Source of the DNA: Desulfobacterales bacterium
GTDB lineage: Bacteria > Desulfobacterota > Desulfobacteria > Desulfobacterales > Desulfatibacillaceae
Reading direction: 5' to 3'
Assembly: GCA_020057225.1 (NCBI GenBank)
Contig: JAGVGH010000136.1
Location: 1 to 45,458, forward strand
DNA length: 45,458 bases
The notes beneath the pieces are model-generated. The model saw nothing but the letters and a program-made list of their open reading frames with translations, did not search any database and was not told the origin of the DNA. A program made the translations under genes and the position numbers. Position 1 is the first letter of the stretch; every line of letters begins with the position of its first letter. This document shows positions 173 through 29,722 of this stretch, piece after piece.

Positions 173-3100
173 ATGGCGTCCCGCTACCGCGTTTCCCGGC
201 TCTTACGTTTCCCTTATGAGAACACCGCAACCAGGCCCCGCGGCGGGCCGGCGCCTTTCAATGGCGCGGCCCCGCGCGCTCTCCGGCACAGCCCGCGGAT
301 TTCCGGGACAGGAATCATCCTCTCTGCCCTGGCCCTCCTGGTCTCTCTTGCCGCCTCCCAGGCCCTGTCCCAGGCCCATCCGCCCAAGGTGGTCATCCTC
401 AACTCCTACCACCAGGGCGAGGAATGGTCCGACAAGGAACTCGCCGGAATTCTTCCAGTTCTCAGGAAGGCATACCCCCACCTTGTCCCATCGGTCGAGC
501 ACCTGGACGCGAAACGCTTTCCGGGCCCGCGGCACGCGGCGCGCCTTGTGGGGTTTTTGTCTCAAAAATACCGGGGCCAACATGTGGACCTGGTCATGGC
601 CCTGGACAATCCGGCGTTTGACCTTCTCCTGGAATCGCGTGACGCGGTTTTTCCGGGCGCTCCTGTGGTTTTCGCCGGCGTAAACGGATTCCGTCCTGAA
701 ACACTGGCCGGACAAACCGGTATCACAGGAGTCTGCGAGGCCCAGGATGTTGCGGGGACCCTCGGGCTTGCCCTTGACCTGCATCCAAAAACCCGGAAAG
801 TGCTCGTCATCCACGATTACACGCCCTCCGGACTCGCGGTGCGCAAAGACATGGACGCCGTATCTCCGGCTTTTAAAGGGCGGGTGGAGTTCGGGTATGT
901 CCCACCCTGCTCCATGGAGGCGTTGCGCAGCCTGCTTAAAAATTACCAACAGACCGAATCCCTGGTTCTCCTCCTTTCCTTTGTCACCGATACAAACAAC
1001 CATGCCTATACCCGGGAGGAAGGCACTCTCCTTATCGCATCCTCTTCTCCTGTGCCTGTCTATGCCATGCATGAGACCCGCCTGGGCCATGGAATTCTTG
1101 GCGGCCTGCTCCTGGAGGGCAAAGAGCACGGACGGCAGGCCGCCGGGCTGGCTCTGCGTGTTCTAAAGGGAGAGAACCCCGCGCGGATTCCTGTAGAGCG
1201 CAGCGTCTCCCGGCCTGTGTTTGATTATGTCCAGCTTCGGCGTTTTAGCGTGCCTCTCCGCTCCCTTCCCCAGGGAAGCCTTGTCGTCAACCGGCCGCGG
1301 ACACTTTGGGAGGAATACCGCGAAGTGGTCCTTCCTCTGGCCGCTGTTGTGTGCGGCCTGTTCGTTCTGCTCCTGGCCCTTGCCGCCGCCTTTTTCCGGC
1401 TAAGGCGTATTCACCGGGACTTCAAAAAAACGGAAGCCAGCCACCGCCAGATGTTCGACACCGCGAACGAAGGCATCTGGGCCATGGACGGGGAGTACCG
1501 GACCACCCTTGTCAACCGGCACATGGCCCACATGCTTGGGTACGCGCCCGAGGAGATGCCGGGCCGCAAGGTGCATGAGTTCATGTTCGGGGAGGACATT
1601 GAAGACCACAGCGCCCAGATGGCGCAACGGCAGTATGGAGCTTCCAGTGTGTATGAACGGCGCTTTCGCAAGAAGGACGGCTCCGTCCTTTGGACCCTTG
1701 TTTCCGCCTCTCCGAAAATCGGCCCTGGAGGACGCTTTGACGGCTCCTTCGCCATGTACACCGATATAACTTTAAGGAAAAGGGCGGAAGAGGCGCTCAA
1801 GGAAAACGAGGCCCGCTACCGCCAGATGTTTGAGACAAACCAGGCTGTCAAACTGATTATTGACCCGTCCGACGGGCGCATCATCGAGGCCAACGGGGCG
1901 GCCCACAGGTTTTACGGTTTTGGCGGCAATGTGCTCGCGCAACTGCGGGAAATGGACATCAACACCTTGCCCGGGGAGGAGGTCCGCAGGGAAATGGAAC
2001 GGGCGGCGGGCGAAGAGCGTCCGCATTTCCATTTCCGGCACAAGCTCGCCTCCGGTGAAATCCGGGATGTGGAGGTTTACTCCGGACCTATTGTCATTGG
2101 CGGCAGGAAACTATTGTATTCGATTGTGCATGACATCACACAGCGGAGAAGAGCCGAGGAGGCGCTCAAGGAAAGCGAGGAGCGCTTCCGCCTCCTTTAC
2201 GAGGACGCTCCGCTGGCCTACCAGTCCCTGGACGAGGAAGGCAATTTCGTGGAGGTGAACCCCGCCTGGCTCAGGGTTCTGGGATATTCACGGGAGGAGG
2301 TGATCGGCAAAAATTTCGCGGAGTTTATCGCTCCGGAATCGCGGGACCATTTCAGGGATAACTTCCCAAGATTCAAAGCCGTGGGCGAGGTTCTGGGCGT
2401 TGAGTTCGAGATGGTGAAAAAAGACGGCCGTCGCATTCTCGTTACGTTCAACGGAAAGATAGGGCGGGATTCCGGGGGCGGGTTCAAGCAGACCCATTGT
2501 ATTTTCCTGGATATCACTGAAAGCAAACGCGCCCAGGAGGCGCTCAGGGAAAGCGAGGAGAACTACGCCTTTGTGGTCAACTCCATGCAGGAGACCCTTT
2601 CGGTGATTGACACGGAAGGCCGTTTTCTTTTCGTCAACACCAAGGCCGCGAAAAACCTGTCCGGAGAAGGTCCGGAGAAGGTCACCGGAAAAAACCTGCG
2701 CGACTTTGTCCCTGAAGAAGATGCGGACTATCTCATCTCCCGATACAGAGAAACAGTCGCATCGGGAAAACCCATATCCCAGGACATCCGGGTCACCCTG
2801 TCAGGCGGCGCGCGCTGGTTTCACAACATCCGGCAGCCCGTTTTCTTTGGCCGGGAAAAAACACCCGCTGTGCTCAGCATGTCCCTGGACATCACGGCCC
2901 GCAAGCAAACCGAGGAGGCGCTTAAGGCGAGCGAAGAGAAATTCCGGACTCTGGCTGAAAGCAGCGAAGACTACATCATGCGCTATGACCGCAAGGGGCG
3001 GCATATCTACATGAATCCGGCGGGGCTTGCGGTCTCCGGGTTCTCGGAAAAGGATGTTCCCGGAAAAACCCACTGGGAACTGGGTTTTGATCCGGCCCTG

Positions 3101-4879
3101 TGCGCCCTTTGGGAAGAGAAGATAGAGGCCGCGTTTCAAACAGGCGCTCCCCGGCAGTGCCAGTTTGAATGGGAGAGCGTCAAGGGAAAAGTCACCCTTG
3201 ATTTGCGCTTTACCCCGGAATTCGGAGAAAACGGCCAGGTTGTCTCTGTGCTGGGAGTCTCCAGGGATATCACCGCCCTCAAACAGGCCGGGGAAAAGCT
3301 GCGCGACCAGATGGAATTTGTCTCAACACTCTTGGACACCATCCCCATCCCCGTGTTTTACAAAAACGCCAAGGGCAGATACCTGGGATGCAACCGGGCC
3401 TTCGAAAGCTTTTACGGCCTCCCCAAGGAAACACTTGTGGGAAAAACCGTGAAGGAGATCGGCATCGGCGAACAGGCGGCTCTTTTTGACGCCAAAGACC
3501 AGGAGCTTTTTCAAGCGCCCGGCACCCAGTTCTATGAAAGCACGGTCAAAACCGCCGCCGGAGAAAACAAGGACGTGCTGCTCCACAAAGCAACGTTTAC
3601 CGGTTCCCAGGGCCGGGTGGCCGGAATTATCGGCGCCATCCTCGACCTGACCGGGCGCAACAGGGCCCACGCGGAACGCCTTGCGATGCAGGAACGCCTG
3701 CTCCACTCCCAGAAACTCGAAAGCATCGGGGTGCTTTCGGGAGGCATCGCCCACGACTTCAACAACCTCCTCATGGCTGTTCTCGGCAACCTGGACATGG
3801 CCCTGTACGACATTTCAGCCTATTCTCCGGCCCGGCAGCCTGTGGAGGCCGCCATTCAAGCCTCGAAGCGCGCGGCGGACCTTACACGCCAGCTTTTGGC
3901 CTACTCGGGCAAGGGCAGGTTTGTGGTGGCGGAGGTGGACCTGAACGCGGTGGTGCGGGAAAACGCGCGCATGCTCAAGGCCGCCATTTCCAAAAATGTG
4001 AGCCTGGAGATACTGGCCGCTGAAAACCTGCCCCAGGTCATGGCCACGCCGGAGCAGGTGCAGCAGGTGGTGATGAATCTCATCACCAACGCGTCGGAGG
4101 CCATTTGCGATAATCCCGGAGTGGTAACCCTCAAAACCTTCACCTGCGACTGCGGCGCGGAGGAGCTTTCCAAAAGCCTCGCCGGAGATATCCCGCCTCC
4201 GGGAAAATTCGTCGCGCTTGAGGTCATGGACACAGGCTGCGGAATGGACGCGGCCACTTTGGCGAAACTCTTCGACCCCTTCTTTTCAACGAAATTCCAG
4301 GGCCGGGGCCTTGGAATGTCCGCCGTGCTGGGCATTGTGCGGGGACACCAGGGCGCGATTTTCGTGGATTCCGCGCCGGGACTGGGAACCACCATCCGGG
4401 TTTTGTTTCCATTGTCCGCGGACGCCAGGCCGTCTGTGCCCGGGGAAACCCGGAAGGAGCCTGCCGCTCCGACAAACCCCTGCGCGGCCCGGGAAAAGAA
4501 AGGACTGGTCCTTCTGGCGGACGATGAGGAGGCGGTGCTGAACGTGGGTGAAAAGATGCTCCAAAGGCTGGGGTACGATGTCCTTACAGCGGAAGACGGG
4601 GACGAGGCCCTTGCAACCTACGCGCGCCATGCCGAACGGATTGTCTGCATTGTTTTGGACTGGAGGATGCCCAGGCTGGACGGGCCCGCCACCCTGGCCT
4701 TGCTTCGGCAAACCGCGCCGGATGTCCCGGTGGTCCTGTCGAGCGGGTATTCCCAGGAAGAGGCTCTATCCAGGCTGGACAACAACCGCCATGTGGCTTT
4801 CATCCAAAAGCCCTATACTTTGGGAAACCTGGAAAATATCCTTGCGAAAGCCACGCGGAAAACCGGGGAGGGAAACTGA
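173..4879 (+). CDS. Hybrid sensor histidine kinase/response regulator: N-terminal ABC substrate-binding-like sensor, about six PAS domains, HisKA/HATPase, C-terminal receiver
   Basis: 1568-aa ORF; N-terminal 'PPKVVILNSYHQGEEWSDKELAGI' then TM; repeated PAS linkers ('RAEEALKESEERFR' and similar); H-box 'IGVLSGGIAHDFNNLL', N-box 'NLITNASEAI', 'DTGCGMD', receiver 'LLADDEEAV...VLDWRMPRLDG'. Confidence 0.93.
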   Translation: MASRYRVSRLLRFPYENTATRPRGGPAPFNGAAPRALRHSPRISGTGIILSALALLVSLAASQALSQAHPPKVVILNSYHQGEEWSDKELAGILPVLRKAYPHLVPSVEHLDAKRFPGPRHAARLVGFLSQKYRGQHVDLVMALDNPAFDLLLESRDAVFPGAPVVFAGVNGFRPETLAGQTGITGVCEAQDVAGTLGLALDLHPKTRKVLVIHDYTPSGLAVRKDMDAVSPAFKGRVEFGYVPPCSMEALRSLLKNYQQTESLVLLLSFVTDTNNHAYTREEGTLLIASSSPVPVYAMHETRLGHGILGGLLLEGKEHGRQAAGLALRVLKGENPARIPVERSVSRPVFDYVQLRRFSVPLRSLPQGSLVVNRPRTLWEEYREVVLPLAAVVCGLFVLLLALAAAFFRLRRIHRDFKKTEASHRQMFDTANEGIWAMDGEYRTTLVNRHMAHMLGYAPEEMPGRKVHEFMFGEDIEDHSAQMAQRQYGASSVYERRFRKKDGSVLWTLVSASPKIGPGGRFDGSFAMYTDITLRKRAEEALKENEARYRQMFETNQAVKLIIDPSDGRIIEANGAAHRFYGFGGNVLAQLREMDINTLPGEEVRREMERAAGEERPHFHFRHKLASGEIRDVEVYSGPIVIGGRKLLYSIVHDITQRRRAEEALKESEERFRLLYEDAPLAYQSLDEEGNFVEVNPAWLRVLGYSREEVIGKNFAEFIAPESRDHFRDNFPRFKAVGEVLGVEFEMVKKDGRRILVTFNGKIGRDSGGGFKQTHCIFLDITESKRAQEALRESEENYAFVVNSMQETLSVIDTEGRFLFVNTKAAKNLSGEGPEKVTGKNLRDFVPEEDADYLISRYRETVASGKPISQDIRVTLSGGARWFHNIRQPVFFGREKTPAVLSMSLDITARKQTEEALKASEEKFRTLAESSEDYIMRYDRKGRHIYMNPAGLAVSGFSEKDVPGKTHWELGFDPALCALWEEKIEAAFQTGAPRQCQFEWESVKGKVTLDLRFTPEFGENGQVVSVLGVSRDITALKQAGEKLRDQMEFVSTLLDTIPIPVFYKNAKGRYLGCNRAFESFYGLPKETLVGKTVKEIGIGEQAALFDAKDQELFQAPGTQFYESTVKTAAGENKDVLLHKATFTGSQGRVAGIIGAILDLTGRNRAHAERLAMQERLLHSQKLESIGVLSGGIAHDFNNLLMAVLGNLDMALYDISAYSPARQPVEAAIQASKRAADLTRQLLAYSGKGRFVVAEVDLNAVVRENARMLKAAISKNVSLEILAAENLPQVMATPEQVQQVVMNLITNASEAICDNPGVVTLKTFTCDCGAEELSKSLAGDIPPPGKFVALEVMDTGCGMDAATLAKLFDPFFSTKFQGRGLGMSAVLGIVRGHQGAIFVDSAPGLGTTIRVLFPLSADARPSVPGETRKEPAAPTNPCAAREKKGLVLLADDEEAVLNVGEKMLQRLGYDVLTAEDGDEALATYARHAERIVCIVLDWRMPRLDGPATLALLRQTAPDVPVVLSSGYSQEEALSRLDNNRHVAFIQKPYTLGNLENILAKATRKTGEGN

Positions 4880-27349: not shown

Positions 27350-28084
27350 TCATCCCTGAAGGGTGGTCAGCGTCCGCGCCTGCCTGGGCCACTCGTCGTA
27401 GGTTTTTCCGTCCAGGTTCCAGCCCGCTTTTTTCTTGTTCACGCCGCCCCACTGTTTGAAGAAAAAGGGAACGCCCGCCTCCCCGCATTGTTTCCGGATA
27501 TCCAGGATCCAAGGCTCTTCCATGGGGCGCGCCCCGGGCCCGGACTCTCCGCCGACGATTACCCAGTGGATTCCGGAGAGGTCAAGTTCTCGAACAGGGC
27601 CAAGAAGAGGCTCCATGGACAGAAAGCGGACTTTGGCGGGAACATTTTTAAGGTGACGGGCTCGGAAAACGTAATCCGCGCGCTCAATGGTCACGCCCAT
27701 CCACACATTGGAGGGCCAGACGAGTTTGGAGGCAAAATTTTCCATCCGTTCGGAGCGTTTGGTGAGCACCTGGAATATATGCCATTTGGCCTTGCGCATG
27801 ACATTGAAAATGTCCAGGATAAACGAGTCCGGGACATTCTTGTGGAACAGGTCGCTCATGGAGTTGACGAACACCATTTGCGGTTTTTTCCATGTGAGGG
27901 GGGTTTCAAGGCTTTCGGGGTGAAGGGCAATATTAAAGCCGGTGGAGTAATGCGGCTGACCCATGGCCTGGAGGCGGCGGGCCATTCTTTCCGCGTAGCA
28001 GTTCAGGCATCCGGCGCTGATTTTGTCGCACCCGGTCACCGGATTCCAGGTGGCTTCGGTCCATTCGATTTTAGAGGCTGCCAT
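27350..28084 (-). CDS. DUF5131 (phage Gp37/Gp68-like) family protein
   Basis: 'IEWTEATWNPVTGCDKISAGCLNCYAERMARRLQAMGQPHY', 'VFVNSMSDLFHKNVPDSFI', 'FQVLTKRSERM', 'WVIVGGESGPGARPMEEPWILDIRKQC'. Confidence 0.88.
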   Translation of the reverse strand: MAASKIEWTEATWNPVTGCDKISAGCLNCYAERMARRLQAMGQPHYSTGFNIALHPESLETPLTWKKPQMVFVNSMSDLFHKNVPDSFILDIFNVMRKAKWHIFQVLTKRSERMENFASKLVWPSNVWMGVTIERADYVFRARHLKNVPAKVRFLSMEPLLGPVRELDLSGIHWVIVGGESGPGARPMEEPWILDIRKQCGEAGVPFFFKQWGGVNKKKAGWNLDGKTYDEWPRQARTLTTLQG

Positions 28085-28154: not shown

Positions 28155-28688
28155 TCAAAACGGGGAAAAAGCCGCCACCCCGCGGCTCACCGGCCATTTG
28201 GGAAAGTTCGCATTCCAGTTGGCCACGTTGACCACTTGGCAACTGGTGACGATGCCCTGCTTCCATCGTTTGGACGCCAACCCAACAGGCAATTCCTTCA
28301 CCAGAGCCTTTCGCATGACCGTATTCAAGGCGTTGTCGAAAGTCAGCAGGCATATATAGTGGATCGGCTTATCAACTTTTTGTTCCGCATGGCGAAAAAG
28401 ATAGGAGTCCCGATATTTATATTTAAGATAATTTTTAAGCCATTTAAATCTGGTTTGTTTTTCATCGCCTTCCTGATCGGTGGTCATATCTTCCATTTCA
28501 TATAAAAAAGGGTCATTAAAATCCTTCATTTCAACAAAGATATAAGCATCAGGCAATTCGACAATTATGTCAACAGCCTTCATAGGCTGGCCATGGTATG
28601 TAGGCTTTGATTTGTCCTTTTCATCAAAAACAAAAGCATCAAGCGCATCAGTGAAATTAAAAGAAAACCCGTCAGCATCAACCTTCAT
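28155..28688 (-). CDS. Uncharacterised protein with possible PD-(D/E)XK nuclease-like core
   Basis: 177-aa ORF; 'KAVDIIVELPDAYIFVEMKDF' fits D-(X)n-ExK; ATGA overlap with the upstream ATPase. Confidence 0.65.
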   Translation of the reverse strand: MKVDADGFSFNFTDALDAFVFDEKDKSKPTYHGQPMKAVDIIVELPDAYIFVEMKDFNDPFLYEMEDMTTDQEGDEKQTRFKWLKNYLKYKYRDSYLFRHAEQKVDKPIHYICLLTFDNALNTVMRKALVKELPVGLASKRWKQGIVTSCQVVNVANWNANFPKWPVSRGVAAFSPF

Positions 28689-29722
28689 TTTCCGAGTCCT
28701 TTCATGGATTTCACAATTTCACGGTCAACAATACTGCCAAAAGTATCATCAATTGCGTTTGGAGAAAGACTCATATAATCATCGGTTGAAGAAAGTTCTA
28801 TTTCTCTGGTTTCCTTGTTCCTAAACAGGCTGTGAAAAAGAATTTTGTCTTCTGAATTTGCCTGTAAATCGAATTCTTTAAGAATCATATAATCATGTGT
28901 TGTAAGAAAGATTTGCACGCTAAGGCGCTGTAATTCAATCAATATATTCACGACAGCCTTCATCAGGCGCGGGTTGAGATTGGTCTCAGGCTCATCCCAA
29001 AATAGCGCTGATCCGTTCAACAAAGTTCCATTTTGAATCAATATCCAAAGAAGACCCATTTTCCGGAATCCCTCGGCCAGCAAGGTAAACTCCAATTCGC
29101 CATCTTTGCCGCGCAGAAAAAACTCCTCTTTTTTCGCCACAACTTTGCCGTCCATAGCCTCCTGCAAATTTTCAAGAAGCTGCCTGCGCGGTTTGTCTGT
29201 AGGGCCTTTAAGCAAGGGAAGAAATGCCTTCCGCAGGATATCAACATAGACCTCTTCAAAGTGAATTTCCCGCTCCTCGTAGAGTGAGCGAAATCCAGGA
29301 GCGTTCGCCATCATGTCCTTGACAGGAATGTAGGCCGCCTCCATGGGGTTTTCTTTCCAGGCCTTTGGAGAGCCGGAAACCTTGGCGTTTTCGGGGTTGG
29401 CGGTATGATTTGAAAGAGACAGCCGCAGGGTGATTTTTTTTCCGTCCTCGAGCTTTCGATGCACTTCCAGCGACCCATTGATACTGCCAGGAGACCGCTT
29501 GACAAGACGTCCGATTTGTTTGCCGGAAGGATAGAAAACATTGTTGATTTTTTCAGCAAAACCCTCTTTACTTTTAGCTATATCACATGCGGCATAGGCA
29601 GCCTTCAGAATATGGGTTTTCCCGGTTCCGTTTTCGCCGACGAAAATGTTAATTCCCGGCGAGAAAACGACCTCGAGTTTTTCGAAGGCTGTAAATCTTT
29701 CAAATTTTATCTTGTCAAGCAT
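28685..29722 (-). CDS. SMC/ABC-like AAA15/AAA21-type ATPase
   Basis: Walker A 'FVGENGTGKTHILKA', Walker B 'ALFWDEPETNLNPRLMKA', H-switch 'FLTTHDYMIL'; ATG 29722 preceded by AGGAGG. Confidence 0.85.
   Translation of the reverse strand: MLDKIKFERFTAFEKLEVVFSPGINIFVGENGTGKTHILKAAYAACDIAKSKEGFAEKINNVFYPSGKQIGRLVKRSPGSINGSLEVHRKLEDGKKITLRLSLSNHTANPENAKVSGSPKAWKENPMEAAYIPVKDMMANAPGFRSLYEEREIHFEEVYVDILRKAFLPLLKGPTDKPRRQLLENLQEAMDGKVVAKKEEFFLRGKDGELEFTLLAEGFRKMGLLWILIQNGTLLNGSALFWDEPETNLNPRLMKAVVNILIELQRLSVQIFLTTHDYMILKEFDLQANSEDKILFHSLFRNKETREIELSSTDDYMSLSPNAIDDTFGSIVDREIVKSMKGLGK

Follow-up and report, generated by a model that had tools for sequence, protein, structure and literature searches.

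A predicted ATPase-nuclease gene pair from a Desulfobacterales bacterium matches the candidate anti-phage module HEC-02 and has close relatives embedded in BREX loci

Is a compact, AT-rich pair of genes for an ATPase and a small putative nuclease, lying among metabolic genes in a Desulfobacterales genome, a defence system, and if so, is it a new one? Both genes are on the minus strand of the 45,458-nt stretch of DNA analysed here (the window). The upstream gene, HEC-02A (28685..29722), runs from an ATG at 29722, with AGGAGG just 5' of it, to a TGA at 28685 and encodes a 345-aa OLD/ABC-type ATPase (AAA_21) that is the predicted sensor, as judged from PADLOC, Pfam, AlphaFold2 (AF2) and Foldseek. 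The downstream gene, HEC-02B (28155..28688), runs from an ATG at 28688 to a TGA at 28155 and encodes a small predicted PD-(D/E)XK nuclease of 177 aa, an assignment based on PADLOC, the conservation of D40, E53 and K55, the AF2 model and PDB folds. The stop codon of the first and the start codon of the second share an ATGA (28685..28688), a 4-nt overlap also found in most relatives, from which translational coupling is suggested. Inspection of HEC-02A gave the Walker A motif GENGTGKTH, the Walker B motif LFWDEPETNLNP and TTHD, and that of HEC-02B gave VDIIVE...FVEMK. The reading frames, their overlap and these motifs are as an earlier sequence-only reading had described them, as is the AT richness of the block, its GC fraction being 0.43-0.44 over 28155-29722 versus ~0.6 in both flanks.

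Both proteins match dedicated PADLOC family models over their full length. HEC-02A aligns through residues 1-341 to positions 1-335 of the 337 in the HEC-02A profile PDLC04213 (E=2.3e-125), and HEC-02B through residues 1-169 to positions 1-167 of the 171 in the HEC-02B profile PDLC04229 (E=1.2e-63), with matches to seven more HEC-02B models at E values up to 7.7e-13. The two genes, adjacent on one strand with the ATGA overlap, have the HEC-02 gene arrangement. Judged by sequence, the window pair is an intact copy of HEC-02, which is already catalogued as an anti-phage candidate. The sequence-only reading had proposed an undescribed system and had named a match to an already named one as what would count against it; such a match was found. 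A separate observation concerns the library itself, in which model PDLC04146 bears the label HEC-02B but hits the ATPase (E=5.9e-66) and not the nuclease, in what looks like a labelling slip.

HEC denotes a Hma-embedded candidate, one of a set proposed through "guilt by embedding" (Payne et al. 2024, as cited in PMC12988326); according to the citing paper several HECs, including HEC-06, are active, and HEC-02 is not singled out (PMC12988326). The name HEC-02 did not occur in the defence literature searched, which covered papers other than the preprint that named the HECs. No Hma neighbour lies beside the window pair or in the relatives examined, though a location within Hma is not known to be a requirement for belonging to HEC-02. 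The window pair shares with PADLOC's HEC-02 both full-length model matches, the gene order and the adjacency, whereas the window copy stands alone and the relatives examined sit in BREX rather than Hma.

The combination of an ATPase with a small ExK partner, which the sequence-only reading could match to no known system, has been published as WonAB (PMC12137116) and as OLD-ABC plus REase modules in BREX (PMC12839542). WonAB, from the WASA-1 prophage of V. cholerae (Nat Microbiol 2025), is an experimentally validated pair in which an OLD-ABC ATPase (WonA) is joined by a small PD-(D/E)xK nuclease (WonB); both subunits are required for phage defence, the substitutions K34A, R182A, E300A and H333A in WonA and K71A in WonB abolish defence, and WonB shows toxicity only alongside WonA (PMC12137116). 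It aborts infection through translation arrest, without degradation of genomic DNA, and its authors assign it to a broader family and link it with an operon termed "OLD-ABC ATPase + Novel REase" (PMC12137116). HEC-02 resembles WonAB in its two-gene operon, the nuclease half of which is recognised from its motif and a weak fold match, in the equivalent order of catalytic residues (WonA K34/E300/H333 and HEC-02A K35/E244/H276) and in the spacing from Glu to His (33 residues in WonA, 32 in HEC-02A). It differs in having 209 residues from the Walker A lysine to the Walker B glutamate versus 266 in WonA, ~57 fewer, which implies smaller inserts in HEC-02A. In WonA a C-terminal extension provides the nuclease-binding surface; HEC-02A ends in a single lower-confidence helix (residues 323-344 of the AF2 model). 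Because insert lengths differ and the two were compared by description rather than by sequence, we call HEC-02 WonAB-like, not WonAB. Krishnan et al. 2020 are also said to have described an "OLD-ABC ATPase + Novel REase" module.

OLD-ABC proteins paired with PD-(D/E)XK and other nucleases inside BREX have been proposed as back-up effectors (PMC12839542), and these modules, compared here by description only, have the same pairing within BREX loci. PARIS likewise joins an OLD-ABC sensor to a nuclease partner and is recruited to BREX neighbourhoods too, but its AriB is a TOPRIM protein and HEC-02B has no AriB or TOPRIM match. PtuA proteins of Septu and retron-associated PtuAB are among the best PDB folds for HEC-02A, whereas PtuB is an HNH nuclease and HEC-02B has no PtuB or HNH match. 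PD-T4-4 also comprises an ATPase and a second protein, and HEC-02A matches PD-T4-4_A weakly (1.3e-11), but HEC-02B has no match to PD-T4-4_B at E values up to 10. In Gabija a TOPRIM-fused ATPase is paired with a UvrD-like helicase, unlike the 345-aa HEC-02A, which has no TOPRIM domain and no adjacent helicase.

We favour the reading, at a probability of roughly 0.7, that the window locus is a complete, functional-looking and horizontally acquired HEC-02 copy, in which an ATPase sensor would gate a nuclease effector in WonAB-like abortive infection.

Relatives were sought with HEC-02B alone, the ATPase being outside the query. A scan of the GTDB collection for HEC-02B motifs returned 184 places, of which 80 relatives were kept for analysis, spanning Pseudomonadota, Chloroflexota, Planctomycetota, Acidobacteriota, Nitrospirota, Omnitrophota and others; one viral contig carries HEC-02B, two plasmids carry distant relatives, and the phage records searched yielded none. 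Within the phylum, a profile search detected HEC-02B in 14 of 395 genomes, and in no other sampled member of the window genome's family. HEC-02A lies directly upstream of HEC-02B on the same strand at 81/81 scan loci and 13/13 profile-search loci, which, since one locus is present in both sets (L025 = L035), makes 93 of 93 distinct loci; the expected co-occurrence of homologous pairs is borne out. At one locus (L022:3481-4517) HEC-02A is split over two ORFs upstream of an intact HEC-02B, possibly through a frameshift or an assembly error.

The sequence-only reading had also suggested horizontal acquisition, and the neighbourhood agrees. An order of histidine phosphatase, acyl-CoA dehydrogenase, TetR and APH-like kinase genes is kept wholly or largely in six relatives from the same family, and within the stretch examined in those six there is no HEC-02A, HEC-02B or DUF5131 gene. 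The pair-free site in these relatives, together with the low GC, indicates an insertion in the window's lineage; low GC of the pair is also seen in hosts whose loci are 48-56% GC. No convincing direct repeats, tRNA or att site flank the pair. Both genes are under constraint. Comparison of the window with its relative L023 gave pN 0.08 and pS 0.77 for HEC-02A and pN 0.14 and pS 0.71 for HEC-02B, with synonymous sites near saturation, and divergence overall ranged over pN 0.08-0.23 versus pS 0.71-0.85; the purifying signal against L023 is pairwise and does not isolate the window branch. This constraint, the AAA_21 match (E=1e-23), the two full-length matches to dedicated family models and the 184 sites with relatives of HEC-02B make the pair more than a product of chance. 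The copy is intact and probably a functional system of a catalogued candidate family.

A third gene was considered as a component and rejected. The DUF5131 gene (27350-28084, minus strand), 71 nt downstream of HEC-02B on the same strand, is phage Gp37/Gp68-like (PF07505, E=2.9e-103) and matches the PADLOC candidates PDC-M41B and PDC-M30B. Because none of the 94 relative loci carries a homologue, we do not count it as part of the HEC-02 pair; its GC content for the most part resembles the flanks, and its absence from that place in the family relatives suggests that it may have come separately. The window neighbours of the pair are otherwise metabolic genes.

The closest relatives of the window pair are embedded in BREX. 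L023, whose HEC-02A is 87% and HEC-02B 75% identical to those of the window, is a complete type I BREX locus with the order BrxA, BrxB, BrxC, an unassigned 572-aa gene, HEC-02A, HEC-02B, PglX, an unassigned 512-aa gene, PglZ and BrxL. The pair stands between BrxA-BrxB-BrxC-x and PglX in L024, directly before PglX in L027, between PglX and BrxH in L059, L042 and L034, and likewise in BREX in L035. Counted over distinct loci, BREX genes lie beside the pair at 19 at least, a lower bound because contigs are short. Most of the 93 loci have no BREX gene nearby, and most of the relatives outside BREX adjoin ordinary metabolic genes, with no obvious defence islands. The proposed defence association is supported through the BREX embedding of relatives; the metabolic surroundings of most other relatives count against it. 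Mapped on the HEC-02A and HEC-02B trees, the BREX label requires 12 changes, with well supported branches forcing seven changes on the former and three on the latter. The pair has thus moved into or out of BREX on several occasions.

Some of these loci have features of their own. L034, a contig from a viral collection with the order PglX-HEC02A-HEC02B-BrxH-PglZ, is close to the Burkholderiaceae chromosome L042, which means either that a mobile element carries BREX or that a contig of bacterial origin has been filed as viral. L021 has another embedded defence gene, a PADLOC Ppl (1786-4599, minus strand, E=1.3e-157) that follows PglX on the same strand, three genes further downstream. HEC-02B of L027 (8066-8473) is shortened to 135 aa, with ~35 C-terminal residues missing, in a BREX operon in which HEC-02A is intact.

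This distribution bears on the possibility that HEC-02AB acts as an accessory to BREX, on which it would depend as a back-up effector or as a regulator, with the window copy stranded outside BREX and perhaps useless alone. The nearest relatives (L023, L021 and L027, and for HEC-02B also L024) are BREX-embedded, and the window's genome has no match to PglZ; at 92% completeness, however, the assembly could lack a BREX locus that the genome has. Against such dependence, free-standing copies are common, as the majority of loci without a nearby BREX gene attests, the window ORFs are intact and complete in their motifs, and the pairwise divergence from L023, with the window branch not isolated, is strongly purifying. 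We regard a BREX accessory as unlikely, and a self-contained, WonAB-like HEC-02 copy remains the preferred reading.

Two small overlapping genes with a patchy distribution could alternatively be a toxin-antitoxin or addiction module, with HEC-02B as nuclease toxin and HEC-02A as ATPase antitoxin, kept by mobility and not by defence. The annotation of Pfam AAA_21, the top match of HEC-02A, as "putative AbiEii toxin, Type IV TA system" would fit such a module. The embedding of relatives in BREX speaks against it, as do the near absence from phages (0 records) and plasmids (2 records) and the precedent of WonAB, in which the nuclease depends on the ATPase for its toxicity instead of being restrained by it (PMC12137116); we consider the addiction module decidedly improbable and return to the ATPase as a predicted sensor.

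The AF2 model of HEC-02A (pLDDT 89, pTM 0.87) finds its best PDB folds by Foldseek in PtuA, retron-associated ATPases and the heads of Rad50 and SMC (E ~1e-14), so that the SMC-type head expected from structure prediction was obtained. Among 39 sequences, G29, N31, T33, G34, K35 and T36 of Walker A (residues 29-36, GENGTGKT; 29615..29638, minus strand) are invariant, as are F241-E246, N248 and L249 of the Walker B/D-loop region (residues 241-251, FWDEPETNLNP; 28970..29002, minus strand), in which position 247 is T or A, together with G218 and K221 of the signature region and the TH of the H-switch. HEC-02A thus has the Walker A, signature region, Walker B with its Glu, and H-switch of an OLD/ABC ATPase. 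The label "SMC/AAA15-like" of the sequence-only reading was right as to the head; the protein is better named a member of the OLD-type ABC ATPase clade, because AAA_21 is its top Pfam match. The likeness of the head to Rad50 and SMC could also point to DNA repair, with the pair forming a Rad50/SbcC-type complex with a nuclease and having no role in defence, but HEC-02A, at 345 aa, has no long coiled-coil arm, and a pair found in 14 of 395 genomes, absent from close relatives and embedded in BREX is unlike core repair genes, which makes a repair complex very improbable and leaves the ATPase-gated effector as the reading pursued here.

HEC-02B carries its predicted catalytic residues on a hairpin, D40...E53-x-K55 (28524..28571, minus strand), identified from the alignment, residue counts and AF2 strands. 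Across 77 relatives D40 and E53 are kept in all and K55 in 76 (one R), and K91, R93 and D94 are invariant. Because MKAVD and KxRD were in the scan patterns, the patterns themselves account for part of the conservation of these residues, D40 included, in this sample; E53-x-K55 was absent from the patterns and its conservation is therefore not a selection bias, and the loci found by profile also keep D...ExK. In the AF2 model (pLDDT 84, pTM 0.83) the D...(D/E)-x-K residues lie at two successive strands, 41-44 and 49-55. The top nine Foldseek matches in the PDB, led by the large and small subunits of Nt.BspD6I and by Can2, are all PD-(D/E)XK nucleases but weak matches (probability 0.92-0.99, E ~0.01-0.1, TMq 0.31-0.44), and give the expected fold weak support (TM ~0.43). 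Alignment by hhalign to Mrr and Shedu profiles places D and ExK in register at a non-significant probability of 1-3%. HEC-02B has no significant match in Pfam, NCBIfam or PHROGs, its 77 relatives have only sub-threshold Pfam matches, including SduA_C and DUF4143, a sequence search of the PDB found no relative, and a BFVD fold search gave no clear match. Taken together, the motif, its conservation, the topology and the fold matches, none of which would suffice alone, make HEC-02B a probable PD-(D/E)XK nuclease, as had been proposed from its motif. That it is instead a catalytically dead, REase-fold binder of nucleic acid, with another enzyme as effector, would agree with how weakly its fold and profile resemble those of known nucleases and with the inactive REase domains that occur in BREX helicases (PMC12839542), but is extremely improbable given the near-invariant D, E and K, of which E53 and K55 lay outside the search pattern.

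Phylogenies of the two subunits suggest that they can change partners. Distances among HEC-02A and HEC-02B proteins correlate overall (Mantel r 0.48; 0/2000 permutations as high). In L024 (6738-8410), HEC-02B groups with those of the window, L021 and L023 (support 96, starred) and is 61% identical to the window protein, and HEC-02A groups with L029 and L030 (support 99, starred) and is 37% identical. L027 (7035-8473) shows the opposite tendency, with HEC-02A 80% and the truncated HEC-02B 40% identical. As the trees are quick ones, L024 is the case to rely on, and by its placement in them the subunits have swapped partners in at least this one relative. A bolder proposal, possible though doubtful, is that each subunit can be exchanged independently of the other in an ATPase-gated nuclease that moves back and forth between BREX operons and free-standing life. 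On this proposal the window copy would have escaped from BREX to defend alone, and HEC-02B would re-pair with ATPases only ~37% identical and so mix sensor and effector specificities.

Under the favoured reading, HEC-02A most likely dimerises around ATP, and the dimer most likely senses a phage-induced state. We infer an A-B complex in which HEC-02B is probably held by HEC-02A and activated through it. By analogy with WonAB, triggered HEC-02B would cut host or phage nucleic acid and thereby bring about abortive infection. BREX-embedded copies would form an extra effector layer, and the window copy would act in defence alone.

What the analysis adds is the BREX position of the nearest kin, the solitary window copy, the exchange of partners, the 93/93 adjacency of the two genes and the conservation of the catalytic residues. 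The claim of an undescribed system gives way to HEC-02, a catalogued candidate now tied to a mechanism class, that of WonAB, which has been tested. The material supplied, an intact stand-alone pair with BREX-embedded kin and the exchanged-partner pair of L024, bears on whether such modules depend on BREX and on how an ATPase recognises its nuclease.
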